NCBI GenBank assembly: GCA_027424065.1
Contig: DAIBYH010000009.1
Coordinates: 1-15,501 of the forward strand
DNA: 15,501 nt
Direction: 5' to 3'
Source: Candidatus Parcubacteria bacterium
GTDB taxonomy: Bacteria; Patescibacteriota; Minisyncoccia; UBA6257; 2-01-FULL-56-20
In this document: positions 6,988 to 15,501 of the stretch, one piece after another
Layout of the letters: each line of letters begins with the position of its first letter
Numbering within the stretch: position 1 is the first letter of the stretch
Made by a program: the position numbers and the translations under genes
Notes under the pieces: model-generated
The model's input: the letters and a program-made list of their open reading frames with translations, nothing else
Told to the model about the DNA's origin: nothing
The model's database searches: none

Positions 6988-7512
6988 ATGTCTGACGAAC
7001 CGCAGAATATTATGAACGAACCGGAACTTGAAGCCGCTGATCCGAAGCTTCTTTCGGAGCAGCTTGCCGCCGCCGAGCGCCAGCGCGACGAATATCTTGC
7101 CGGTTGGCAGCGCGCCAAGGCGGATTTTCTGAACTATAAGAAAGAGGAGATGGCGCGCCTGCAGGACGCCATAAAGTATGGCAGCGAAGACCTCGTTAAG
7201 GACCTGATTTCCGTTCTGGACAATTTCGATCTCGCGCTCCGATCCCTCGAGAGGTCGGGTCCCGTGGAAAAGGGCATCTATCTCATCCGTTCGCAGATCG
7301 AAGATATTCTCAAGAAGCGCGGACTTGCCAGGATGGAGATCAAGCCAGGAGATCCGTTCGATCCCGCCACCATGGAGGCCATGACCGAGACCCCGAGCGA
7401 TCTTCCGCCGGGAACGGTCGCGGAGGAAATAGAGCCCGGCTATCGTCTTCATGAAAAGGTCTTGCGGGCGAGCAGGGTGATCCTGAGCAAGCAGAAGGAA
7501 GGCAGCGATTAG
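6988..7512 (+). CDS. grpE: Nucleotide exchange factor GrpE
   Basis: GrpE releases ADP from DnaK and is the cofactor that resets the chaperone cycle. The 174-aa protein has an acidic N-terminus, a long helix (about 20-75) with the family pattern LAGWQRAKADFLNYKK (about 42-57), then VLDNFDLAL (76-84) and the C-terminal beta domain, whose signature reads G-D-P-F-D-P-x-x-M-E-A (121-131) and P-G-T-V-A-E-E-I-E-P-G-Y (141-152). Length is typical (about 170-200). It lies between hrcA and dnaK. No Shine-Dalgarno precedes the ATG (the upstream bases are CACCACTATT), and the 8-mer inverted array occupies most of its leader. Confidence 0.95.
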   Translation: MSDEPQNIMNEPELEAADPKLLSEQLAAAERQRDEYLAGWQRAKADFLNYKKEEMARLQDAIKYGSEDLVKDLISVLDNFDLALRSLERSGPVEKGIYLIRSQIEDILKKRGLARMEIKPGDPFDPATMEAMTETPSDLPPGTVAEEIEPGYRLHEKVLRASRVILSKQKEGSD

Positions 7513-12778: not shown

Positions 12779-14314
12779 ATGGCAAAGAGAACATTCGTTT
12801 TGATCGTGCTGGATGGATGGGGGATCGGCAGGAACGATGCTTCAAATCCTATTTATGTTGCCAAGCCGGCAACGTTCGCGAAGCTTGCGGACGAATATCC
12901 GGTGACGAGCCTCCAGGCATCGGGTATCGCGGTCGGTCTTCCCTGGGGCGAGGTCGGCAACAGCGAGGTCGGTCACTTGACGCTCGGTGCGGGCAAGGTG
13001 CTGTACCAATATTATCCGAAGATCACGATGGCGATCCGCGACGGGTCGTTCTTCGAGAACAAGGTCCTGAAAGATGCCTGTGCGCACGCACGGGAAACGG
13101 GCGGGGCCGTCAATTTCGCCGGCCTGCTCACCAAGGCGAACGTTCATGCGTCCCTTGACCACCTGAAGGCGCTTATCAAAATGGCACAGCAGGAGAAGGC
13201 GCCGAAGATCAACCTGCATCTTTTCGCCGACGCCAAGGACAGCCCGCCGCACACGCTGCAGCAGTTCCTGAAAGAGATCCCCCGGGAATACCTCGCGAGC
13301 CTTATGGGCCGTTACTATGCCATGGACCGGCAGGGTGATTGGCGCCTGACCGAAGCGGCCTACGGGGCCATGACGGGCGCTTCGGGACAGCTCGTTGCCG
13401 ATCCTGATCCGGTGATCGCGGCGACCTATGCGCGCGGCGTGACCGAGGAATATCTTTTGCCCCTGCGGTTCGCTGAAGATCGGAAAGTGCAGGACGGCGA
13501 CGCGCTCTTCTTTTTCAATTATCGCGAGGACAGCATCCGGCAGCTCGCATCTTCCTTCATTCTCAAGCCGTTCGACAAGTTCGCGACGGTCGATTTCAAA
13601 AATCTTTTCGTGGCGACCATGAGCCATTACGATGATGCTTTTACGGTCCCGGTTGCATTCCCTGCGGACATTGTTACGAATCCGATCGGCAAGGTGCTTT
13701 CCGATCGGGATATGACCCAGCTGCGGCTTGCGGAAACATACAAATACGCGCACGTGACCTATTTCTTCAACGGACTCCGCGAAGAACCTTTCACGAACGA
13801 ATACCGCATCCTGATCCCGTCGAACGAGAGCCTGCACCCCGAAGAGCATCCCGAAATGATGGCGAAGCTCATTACGGACCGCCTGGTGGAGGCGGTCGAG
13901 AACCGTGCATTCGATTTCATCCTCGTCAACTACGCAAATCCGGATACGATCGGGCATACCGCCGATTATAATGCGGGCGTGGAGGCGGTCCGCGTCGTGG
14001 ACCGGGAGATCGGACGGGTCCTTGAGGCCGCCGAACGTTCCGGCGCCCTGCTCATGCTCACGGGCGACCACGGCAATATTGAGGAGATGATCAATCCGAT
14101 GACGGGACTTCCTGAGAGCCAGCACGATCCAAGTCCGGTTCCGTTCTATCTCGTGGGACAGGAATTCAAGGGGAGGAAGTTCGTCAATCAGGATGCGCTT
14201 GCCGCGGAAACGCTCGGCTCTCTCGCGGATGTTGCGCCGACGATCCTTGAGATCATGGGCGTCCCGCAGCCCCCGGAAATGAACGGCAGGAGCTTACTTG
14301 ACGGATTATCGTAG
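12779..14314 (+). CDS. gpmI: 2,3-bisphosphoglycerate-independent phosphoglycerate mutase
   Basis: This Mn-dependent enzyme interconverts 3- and 2-phosphoglycerate in glycolysis. At 511 aa the length is typical. Seen in order: Asp12 in VLDGWG, catalytic Ser62 in GNSEVGH, His123, Asp154, GRYYAMDR (177-184), FNYRED (246-251), NPDTIGH (387-393), GDHGN (429-433) and His449, so the two-metal ligand set is present. Substrate-side motifs depart from the standard family: the usual DGRDTPP loop reads DAKDSPP (151-157) and the FRxDR motif reads YREDSIR (248-254). The start follows an extended -10 directly. A small membrane-protein gene with its own promoter comes next. Function as iPGM is secure; kinetic consequences of the changes are not known. 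Confidence 0.95.
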   Translation: MAKRTFVLIVLDGWGIGRNDASNPIYVAKPATFAKLADEYPVTSLQASGIAVGLPWGEVGNSEVGHLTLGAGKVLYQYYPKITMAIRDGSFFENKVLKDACAHARETGGAVNFAGLLTKANVHASLDHLKALIKMAQQEKAPKINLHLFADAKDSPPHTLQQFLKEIPREYLASLMGRYYAMDRQGDWRLTEAAYGAMTGASGQLVADPDPVIAATYARGVTEEYLLPLRFAEDRKVQDGDALFFFNYREDSIRQLASSFILKPFDKFATVDFKNLFVATMSHYDDAFTVPVAFPADIVTNPIGKVLSDRDMTQLRLAETYKYAHVTYFFNGLREEPFTNEYRILIPSNESLHPEEHPEMMAKLITDRLVEAVENRAFDFILVNYANPDTIGHTADYNAGVEAVRVVDREIGRVLEAAERSGALLMLTGDHGNIEEMINPMTGLPESQHDPSPVPFYLVGQEFKGRKFVNQDALAAETLGSLADVAPTILEIMGVPQPPEMNGRSLLDGLS

Positions 14315-14326
14315 TTGTGGTAAAAA
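14298..14326 (+). promoter_or_regulatory. Promoter of the 115-aa membrane protein gene
   Basis: The -35 is TTGACG (14298-14303), the spacer is 17 nt, and the -10 is TAAAAA (14321-14326) with TG extension (14318-14319). It starts within the last codons of gpmI. The predicted start, near 14333, leaves a leader of about 13 nt. Confidence 0.7.
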
Positions 14327-14331
14327 AATAC

Positions 14332-14337
14332 GGGAGG
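14332..14337 (+). promoter_or_regulatory. Strong Shine-Dalgarno deciding the start at 14346
   Basis: GGGAGG ends 8 nt before ATG 14346. It is the best ribosome binding site in the window and shows that this gene starts here and not at the in-frame ATG at 14298 inside gpmI. Confidence 0.85.
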
Positions 14338-14345
14338 ATTTAACA

Positions 14346-14693
14346 ATGTTTCGTTCGGTAAATCGGATGGGCGTTTTTACGTTTGTCGCGCTTTGTCTGT
14401 TCTCGGCGGAGTCGATCTTCGCCCGGCAGTTGGGCGTTTCCGGAACGGCGATCTTCTGGGTGATATTCACCCAGTTCGTCATCGTCGCGGCCGTGCTCGC
14501 GGCGATCGACCCTTTCCGTGGAAAGGGGACCGGATACGGTTTCGCTGCGCTGTGCAGTTTCGGGTCGCTGGTCCTTATGGCGGCTCATGAGCTGTGGTGG
14601 GTCGGATTCGCCTTCTGCGTCGCCGGTCCGGCGACGATGTGGGCGGTCTATAGCTTACGGAAGATCCGGAGCGTCAGCATACGACTCCGGTAA
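14346..14693 (+). CDS. Small four-helix membrane protein, unknown function
   Basis: This 115-aa protein is unrecognised. It has about four membrane segments (8-26, 33-53, 63-79, 84-103), a short charged loop (DPFRGKG, 55-61) and a basic C-terminus (RKIRSVSIRLR), suggesting a cytoplasmic tail. No catalytic motif is visible. It follows gpmI by 31 nt but has its own consensus promoter, a strong ribosome binding site and an intrinsic terminator 20 nt after its stop, so it is probably a separate transcription unit. The sequence alone suggests no function. Confidence 0.75.
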   Translation: MFRSVNRMGVFTFVALCLFSAESIFARQLGVSGTAIFWVIFTQFVIVAAVLAAIDPFRGKGTGYGFAALCSFGSLVLMAAHELWWVGFAFCVAGPATMWAVYSLRKIRSVSIRLR

Positions 14694-14823: not shown

Positions 14824-14861
14824 CACATCTCTTAATCCACGATCGTCCAAAAAGAGAGCCG
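14824..14861. repeat. Degenerate copy of the 38-bp palindrome
   Basis: Aligned without gaps to 14901-14938 it matches at 29 of 38 positions, including the central ACGATCGT and the left-hand CATCTCTTAAT. Its own symmetry is partial. The first bases of the copies are 77 nt apart. Confidence 0.8.
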
Positions 14862-14900
14862 AGCTCGTTTATTCCAGTAATTGCGCAAGAAGAATGAACT

Positions 14901-14938
14901 CGCATCTCTTAATAAACGATCGTTTATTAAGAGATGCG
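14901..14938. repeat. Perfect 38-bp palindrome beside the recombinase gene
   Basis: Each arm is 19 bp; the left arm is CGCATCTCTTAATAAACGA and the right arm is its exact complement with no spacer. It begins 16 nt beyond the recombinase stop codon. Read as a tyrosine-recombinase site, it splits into 11-bp arms TCTCTTAATAA and TTATTAAGAGA around an 8-bp ACGATCGT. It lacks a following T-run on either strand, so it is not a standard terminator. Confidence 0.9.
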
Positions 14939-14953
14939 GGGTTTAGCGATTTT

Positions 14954-15501
14954 TCATCCACCTGTTTCATCACGACGTTTCCCGTGGAAGGTCTTATGGA
15001 TCTCGCGGAGCTGCTTGTCGGTGAGGTGCGTGTAGATCTGCGTCGTCGCAATGTTCGCGTGCCCCAGGAGTTCCTGGACCGACCGGATATCTGCTCCGTT
15101 CATCAGGAGATCGGTCGCAAAGCTATGCCGCAATTCGTGCGCATGGACGGGTTTTATGATGCCGGCTTGCCGCGAGCGGAATGCGACGACGCGCTCCGCT
15201 GAGCGGGGTGTGATGCGGCCGATGATCTTTCCTGACTTGTTGATGCTGACAAAAAGCGCCGTTTCGGCGTCGGCGCGTTTTTCAAGATACCGACGGATAG
15301 CTTCTTTTGCCGAAGGAGAAAGGAAAACGACGCGGATCTTATCGCCTTTTCCGCGTACGGAGAGCTCGCCCCGTTTGAGGTCCAGATAGCGGTCCAGCGA
15401 ACAGAGTTCTGCGAGCCGGAGGCCGGTGGAGAAGAATGTTTCAAGGATCGCTTTGTCTCGCAGGTCGCGCAGCGTGTCTTCTTTCGGTGCCGCGAGCAGG
15501 T
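14954..15501 (-). CDS. Tyrosine recombinase (XerC/XerD-like), C-terminal part
   Basis: The minus-strand frame is open from the window edge to a TGA at 14954-14956 and gives the last 181 residues of a site-specific recombinase. The catalytic set is complete in the visible part: Arg in TGLRLAEL (residue 28 of the fragment), Lys in RGKGDK (51), HELRH with His121 and Arg124, His in LLGHANI (147) and the nucleophile Tyr in QIYTH (156). The pattern is that of the Xer group, which resolves chromosome dimers at dif, but integrases of mobile elements share it. The N-terminal DNA-binding domain lies outside the window. A pair of related palindromes lies directly beyond its stop codon. Confidence 0.93.
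   Translation of the reverse strand, partial: LLAAPKEDTLRDLRDKAILETFFSTGLRLAELCSLDRYLDLKRGELSVRGKGDKIRVVFLSPSAKEAIRRYLEKRADAETALFVSINKSGKIIGRITPRSAERVVAFRSRQAGIIKPVHAHELRHSFATDLLMNGADIRSVQELLGHANIATTQIYTHLTDKQLREIHKTFHGKRRDETGG

Follow-up and report, generated by a model that had tools for sequence, protein, structure and literature searches.

Palindromic arrays in a Candidatus Parcubacteria genome and palindrome-flanked genes for Cas2-like (PaaX_M) proteins in its relatives

Genes for proteins with a Cas2-like (PaaX_M) domain were found between two copies of a matched palindrome in genomes related to that of the analyzed Candidatus Parcubacteria bacterium. Such a pair was found around 50 of the 50 genes for which both flanks were present, in 44 of these cases under fixed limits. 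The window, that is, the whole stretch of 15,501 nucleotides analyzed here, contains an array of two palindromes that resemble those around the genes in centre, size, and layout. With moderate confidence, this array can be considered a stand-alone form of the ends of a small selfish unit similar to a REPtron.

Palindromes of the window and their dispersed family

The window is the complete contig C9 of a 532,786-bp genome, which is 84.95% complete and consists of 83 contigs. A sequence-only reading of the window had described a perfect 38-bp palindrome (Table 1), and the symmetry was borne out: its arms of 19 bp have zero mismatches. The chance expectation of a perfect 38-bp palindrome in 15.5 kb is about 6e-8 (hand calculation, equal base frequencies). 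The second copy, also described in that reading, was confirmed as well: it agrees with the first at 29 of 38 positions when counted by eye, and a repeat search gave 80% over 35 nt. The sequence CGTTTATT is present at 14866-14873 as reported, but it is not a half copy of the palindrome, as it had been described; it belongs to a 43-bp linker (type A) common to other arrays. The adjoining right-hand gene is indeed a tyrosine recombinase (Phage_integrase match, 5.6e-36), herein referred to as xer. The palindrome lies 15 bp beyond the xer stop codon (14954-14956, minus strand), and this codon is overlapped by the leader-like flank of the array. The 131-aa ORF on the opposite side of the array, beside gpmI, had no match in a Pfam search. 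Its identity to the counterpart in G001, a genome of the same genus, is 33% vs. 80-85% for xer and gpmI; this ORF is apparently fast-evolving.

Table 1. Features of the palindromic array and its neighbors in the window
Feature	Position	Strand	Basis
Perfect dyad, copy 1 of the local array	14901..14938 (34-bp core 14903-14936)	.	Sequence, profile match
Diverged dyad, copy 2 of the local array	14824..14861 (34-bp core 14826-14859)	.	11/17 pairs complementary
43-bp linker, type A, joining both cores	14860..14902	-	Reverse-oriented linkers at C2, C3, and C19 are 70-84% identical
Leader-like flank	14939..14964	-	Array alignments continue through it: C19 to 14954, C10 to 14964
3' part of xer (tyrosine recombinase), 5' side cut by contig end	14954..15499	-	Phage_integrase
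131-aa ORF, opposite side of the array	14298..14693	+	Gene order kept in G001 without the array

In total, 29 dyads of this family were found in the genome of the window, forming 15 arrays on 14 contigs. When 3 mismatches at most were allowed to the pattern CATCTCTTAATNNACGATCGT, this genome yielded 50 strand matches vs. 0 for the reversed control. A sequence-only profile built from the 29 copies gave 58 strand matches below E 3e-4, which are the same 29 dyads, and one weaker match, a palindrome on contig C14. The dyads of the family have an ACGRYCGT centre, a length of 34-40 bp, and two-fold symmetry; they carry CATCTCTT, and their 34-bp consensus is approximately CATCTCTTWATNNACG-RY-CGTNNATWAAGAGATG.

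Four of the 15 arrays contain one dyad, eight contain two, and three contain three. Within an array, neighboring dyads either lie 3-6 bp apart or are joined by one of two linkers, A (43 bp) or B (41 bp). Both linkers recur among the arrays in either orientation and, therefore, the arrays were copied as blocks. Several arrays have an AT-rich flank on one side. The identified genes flanking the arrays are housekeeping or other ordinary genes or genes for tRNA, with a recombinase found in the window alone, and several of the flanking ORFs had no Pfam match. By our reading, 9 of the 15 arrays are located beyond the end of an identified gene.

Some other repeated or palindromic elements were also observed in this genome. 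A larger second repeat adjoins some of the arrays (L010, 3045-3220; L013, 4421-4590; L020, 2969-3068) and has a 70% match in G001 (C22, 1625-1771). Additional intergenic hairpins, belonging to the TTATCGAGGTTGAACCTCGATAA type and to the CCCCGGG...CCCGGGG type, are located right next to arrays (L016, about 1499-1525 and 2321-2347; L013, L015, and L019, just past the arrays). The palindrome on contig C14 (about 7257-7300; L104, L089) is a lone perfect one of about 44 bp, with the centre GCGATCGC and an inner TTTATCC. Its outer arms are unlike those of the window family, and it may represent a different unit, present here as a single copy.

No covariation above the level of shuffled alignments was found in the window family: 79.9% of the cells are paired vs. 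79.4% after shuffling, and 6 pairs with double changes were observed vs. 7.0 in the shuffles. At the seven pairs that vary most, pairing is absent in 9 to 14 of 26-27 sequences. Six copies that were folded are stable, at -11.2 to -28.6 kcal/mol.

Palindrome-flanked genes for Cas2-like proteins in related genomes

The profile of the window dyad gave nothing at E <= 0.01 in the 37 other genomes of the family among the best candidates scored (up to 150 per genome). A pattern scan of 40 relatives gave three single matches, each with 2 mismatches, and the single match in G001 (2 mismatches) is located in an apparent coding stretch and has no matching second arm. The same kind of scan of genome contigs at large gave 6 single matches in unrelated taxa, which were taken as chance. 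The lead came from a scan of sampled stretches of the relatives for near-perfect dyads, by which three palindromes were found in G024. These palindromes, approximately TAATNNACGATCGTNNATTA, have the centre and the inner positions of the window family and different outer arms. Two of the three bracket an ORF of 188 aa with the PaaX_M domain, the 'central Cas2-like domain' of Pfam (1.1e-22).

Genes for such proteins, 53 in total, were found below E 1e-20 in 18 of the 38 family genomes with a profile of 28 relatives. The number of genes per genome was 14 in G020 and one in G001. Five weaker profile matches (E 0.008-0.065) were excluded from the catalogue. No Cas2-like gene was found by this profile search in the window's own genome, in the 84.95% of it that is present on 83 contigs.

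All 28 aligned members match PaaX_M (best 7.5e-23). At E <= 0.01, all 28 also match the NCBIfam cas2 model, 23 match the Pfam model for CRISPR Cas2, and 22 match, weakly, the PaaX model TIGR02277; the best E-values among the members are 1.1e-6 for the Pfam and 1.2e-8 for the NCBIfam Cas2 model. Bit scores are available for one member only, member 1, and are 20.7 (cut-off 23.8) for the Pfam Cas2 model, 20.9 (cut-off 24.5) for the NCBIfam one, and 24.4 (cut-off 264.55) for the PaaX equivalog TIGR02277. The best sequence match in PDB, 3exc (E 0.0016, labelled uncharacterized), spans the Cas2-like half of the protein. The next PDB matches, all of them weak, fall on the N-terminal half and are mostly to DNA-binding regulators; the putative winged-helix assignment of this half is likewise weak. 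In the alignment of the 28 members, the residues L, L, G, D, and S are invariant, whereas no His or Tyr is. Thus, no signature of HUH enzymes or tyrosine recombinases is present. In the Cas2-like region, a Q-K-S motif is near-invariant and the Asp of FDIP is invariant; the latter we take to be the residue with a role in Cas2.

To define a matched palindrome pair, the following strict limits were used: at least 10 of 17 paired positions in the dyads, a distance of no more than 250 bp from the matched stretch on each side, and at least 22 of 34 identical positions between the two dyads. Within these limits, a pair was found for 44 of the 53 Cas2-like genes. Among 326 control ORFs of 150-300 aa from the sampled stretches, only one passes, and it is itself the Cas2-like gene of G024. 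Six further genes (loci L117 of G001, L151, L165, L166, L225, and L229) have their pair farther out, offset by one base, or extending over the stop codon, as judged by eye under looser limits. In the remaining three (L156, L215, and L222), the contig ends before one of the two flanks is complete; the other flank has a dyad, which is weak in L156.

In the 44 units found under the strict limits, the centres of the two dyads lie 572-879 bp apart (median 665), and the upstream dyad is located about 20-230 bp from the matched start. The commonest centre is ACGATCGT (16 and 17 of 44), followed by GCCATGGC (5 of 44) and then by various others. The ACGNNCGT centre, as in the window family, was found in 22 of the 44 downstream dyads. 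Most genes have arms of their own, and paralogues within one genome have different palindromes. In a raw count over the two palindromes of each unit, 38 base pairs differ in both bases and nevertheless remain complementary, 79 differ in a single base, and 26 differ in both and are unpaired. Locus-specific symmetry beyond the common arms, formed by bases in which the two copies differ, was found at 117 of 334 positions vs. a mean of 27.3% in shuffles, none of the 300 shuffles being as high. When the protein tree is compared with the palindrome centre, the label changes 16 times across the 44 labelled rows and one clade of 4 is pure; this raw comparison is only suggestive.

Mean pairing is 15.4 of 17 positions in the gene-flanking dyads, with 36 of 88 perfect, vs. 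13.2 of 17 in the window family, with 2 of 29 perfect; since the former dyads were chosen by symmetry and the latter by sequence, this contrast is at most indicative of decay. Stand-alone copies, located more than 1.2 kb from any catalogued gene, were found in both genomes sampled: 300 kb of G020 contained 7 such places, and 276 kb of G001 contained one (C16:7109). Some of them, for example C63:25434 and C3:5898 in G020, have symmetrical changes. Additionally, at three loci of G020 (L151, L167, and L176), further palindromes are stacked by the gene with a spacing of about 55-115 bp, like short arrays.

No target-site duplication above chance was found around whole units. Several units have the same neighbors across genera and, thus, movement is not frequent. 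One recurring slot is the end of xer: palindromes of this kind are located no more than about 140 bp past this gene in 5 of the 14 genomes where its end is visible, a count that is biased upwards because G008 and G052 entered the set through the gene search. These five comprise the window's genome, three genomes that have a whole unit there (G004, G008, and G052), and G007, in which a single dyad is found at about +12; in the three genomes with a whole unit, the next gene after xer is the palindrome-flanked Cas2-like gene. In G005, a Cas2-like unit is located 856 bp from xer, and in G003, a dyad of a different type is found at +83 past it. A second recurring slot, in several genera, is next to genes read by eye as valS and tsaD. 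Cas2-like units of differing protein types were observed by valS and/or tsaD in G010, G042, G020, G051, and G009 (L160, L162, L217, L178, and L168). The slots common to genomes may reflect either vertical inheritance or preferred targets.

Proposed explanation and alternatives

Membership of the window family in the Cas2-like palindrome system appears quite likely. Arguments for it are the length, the two-fold symmetry, and the ACGNNCGT centre common to 22 of the 44 units, together with the lone C14 palindrome with its GCGATCGC centre and the presence of the system in the same-genus G001. Against it, the search of the window's own 85%-complete genome gave no cognate gene, and the outer arms are at the shuffled level: compared with the arms of the units, 457 of 500 shuffled arms were as good as those of the window family, which are thus no better than chance. 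When 33 other loci were searched with the dyad profile, a G024 dyad scored best (E 0.0029), and this match rests on the inner 20 bp. The window family is linked to the units by centre, size, and layout only.

The proposed selfish unit consists of a palindrome, a gene for a winged-helix/Cas2-like (PaaX_M) protein, and a second palindrome. The protein would bind its own palindrome as a dimer, and the upstream copy may double as the operator of the gene. Additionally, the protein would spread the palindromes to further intergenic sites by copying or insertion, in a manner similar to that proposed for TnpA-REP and its REPs. Binding and catalysis by the Cas2-like protein and movement of the unit are inferred. 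The search of the window's genome gave no gene, and the dyads there are less symmetrical than the gene-flanking ones; they are therefore likely to be relics, or else to rely on a gene located in the part of the genome that is missing. Several points speak against the selfish unit. The window's genome has no detected Cas2-like gene, the arms of the window family are at the shuffled level, the family shows no covariation above shuffles, and in the gene-flanking pairs 79 changes are one-sided and 26 are two-sided but unpaired. Moreover, target-site duplication was not seen above chance, the conserved neighbors indicate infrequent movement, the winged-helix assignment is weak, and a pure regulator could likewise sit between dyads.

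A regulator of this kind is the main rival. In that case, the Cas2-like protein would be an ordinary PaaX-type repressor, the dyads its operators, and the scattered dyads a fast-changing regulon. Homology to PaaX (PaaX_M in 28 of 28 members; TIGR02277 in 22 of 28, weakly), weak winged-helix matches in the N-terminal half, and the position of the upstream dyad in the 44 strict cases agree with such a repressor. Nevertheless, it seems unlikely: the matched dyad is found downstream of the gene as well in all 50 cases with both flanks, paralogues of one genome have different palindromes, and 29 dyads are present in a genome with no detected regulator. The arrays, moreover, have common linkers and were copied as blocks, and 9 of the 15 lie past the end of an identified gene. 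Another explanation, which we consider improbable, is that the dyads are plain hairpins, that is, bidirectional terminators or mRNA stabilizers that were perfected and copied by template switching without a dedicated protein. Their intergenic location, the stability of the six folded copies, and the one-sided flank rich in A or T that several arrays have would suit this explanation, but neither a T-run nor an orientation towards gene ends is consistent. Plain hairpins are further disfavored by the unpaired sequences at the seven most variable pairs, by the lack of covariation above shuffles, and by the fact that in the relatives the dyads are strictly associated with a single gene family.

One option in the sequence-only reading was a site at which the neighboring Xer acts (dif-like or an attachment site), or a scar of one, and this can hardly be expected now. 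The arms and the centre are readable as a tyrosine-recombinase core, the palindrome lies close to the xer stop codon, and similar palindromes follow xer in 5 of 14 genomes. However, 29 copies were found where one or very few dif sites per chromosome are expected. Both observations that the sequence-only reading had named as refuting were made: the search of the window's genome gave many scattered copies away from recombinases, and the palindrome is absent beside the orthologous xer of G001. Relatives of xer are present in 26 of 26 genomes searched vs. 1 of 38 for the dyad family. In G001, the order xer, 131-aa ORF, gpmI is kept and no palindrome follows the orthologous xer; thus, the dyad is not the conserved site of the recombinase. 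A dif or attachment site was rejected on copy number and on the absence in G001, and xer is regarded as a neighbor of the array. What remains of the earlier suggestion is a mobile-type element and the relevance of the xer end, for which G004, G008, G052, and G007 provided unexpected support. Just as improbable are REP/BIME elements moved by a Y1 (HUH) transposase. Modular palindromic arrays, present in one family genome only, are in accord with them; in contrast, no Y1_Tnp was found in the window's incomplete genome, while 5 of 14 control genomes were positive, and the gene bracketed in the relatives is Cas2-like, without the invariant His or Tyr.

Orthologous comparison of the selfish unit's presumed stand-alone arrays with G001 was feasible at two sites, xer and the C3 array. 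At the latter, 541 bp separate the flanking alignments in the window's genome vs. 46 bp in G001. At the C36 site, synteny with G001 is lost.

Some other candidates were also rejected. Searches for a Y1 transposase and for a serine recombinase in the window's genome gave 0 matches each. An Rfam family was rejected, the six sources searched giving only 16S rRNA and tRNAs. Phage or plasmid origin is unsupported, with no exact match of the pattern in viral contigs. As for relatives of three proteins, none were found for the first in viral contigs, for the second in phages, and for the third in plasmids.

Comparison with known systems

The units found here have the anatomy of gene-plus-palindrome units, in this case with a Cas2-like protein. 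To our knowledge, gene-plus-palindrome units are associated only with Y1 HUH transposases. In the open-access full text searched (with few subscription papers and no preprints), no description of palindrome-flanked Cas2-like/PaaX units was found, and this kind of unit with a Cas2-like gene is apparently undescribed so far. It offers a testable idea for small proteins that are likely annotated as PaaX, or as Cas2 without CRISPR, and the strict pairing in 50 of 50 cases makes each protein/DNA pair directly testable.

The finding also bears on the origin of Cas2. Tentatively, the units could form a new minimal class of mobile elements in small-genome (Patescibacteria-like) bacteria, in which a Cas2-fold winged-helix protein would recognize, cut, and spread its own palindrome without Cas1 and without HUH, DDE, serine, or tyrosine recombinases. 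We regard such a class as possible, with the balance somewhat against it. If it is real, Cas2 would gain a relative on the side of transposons, equipped with DNA ends of its own, and the recognition of repeats during CRISPR adaptation may be evolutionarily linked to it.

The likeness to PaaX regulators includes the PaaX_M domain in 28 of 28 members and the weakly winged-helix-like N-terminal half. The differences are the palindromes on both sides of the gene, the many copies with different palindromes in several genomes, and the score of member 1, which is far under the equivalog cut-off. With Cas2 of CRISPR-Cas systems, the proteins share the Cas2-like region with its invariant Asp (FDIP) and near-invariant Q-K-S motif; in contrast to Cas2, they are encoded between paired palindromes, and the one member with bit scores available is under the Cas2 cut-offs. 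BIME and BOX elements are similar in general description, with palindromic modules, common linkers, and 1-3 modules per array.

The closest anatomy is that of the RAYT/REP systems. As described for these systems (PMC2817692), the RAYT gene is located between two REPs, coevolves with them, and is fast-evolving, whereas the REPs form mosaic arrays and usually number more than 100 per genome. As in the REPtron (PMC2817692; PMC8266576), the gene is bracketed by two copies of its own palindrome, the palindromes vary with the gene, and stand-alone copies in mosaic arrays are found in one species. Unlike in the REPtron, the protein found here is a Cas2-like (PaaX_M) one and not a Y1 HUH transposase, and the palindromes are near-perfect dyads with a recurrent 8-bp centre, present in tens of copies in the window's genome.
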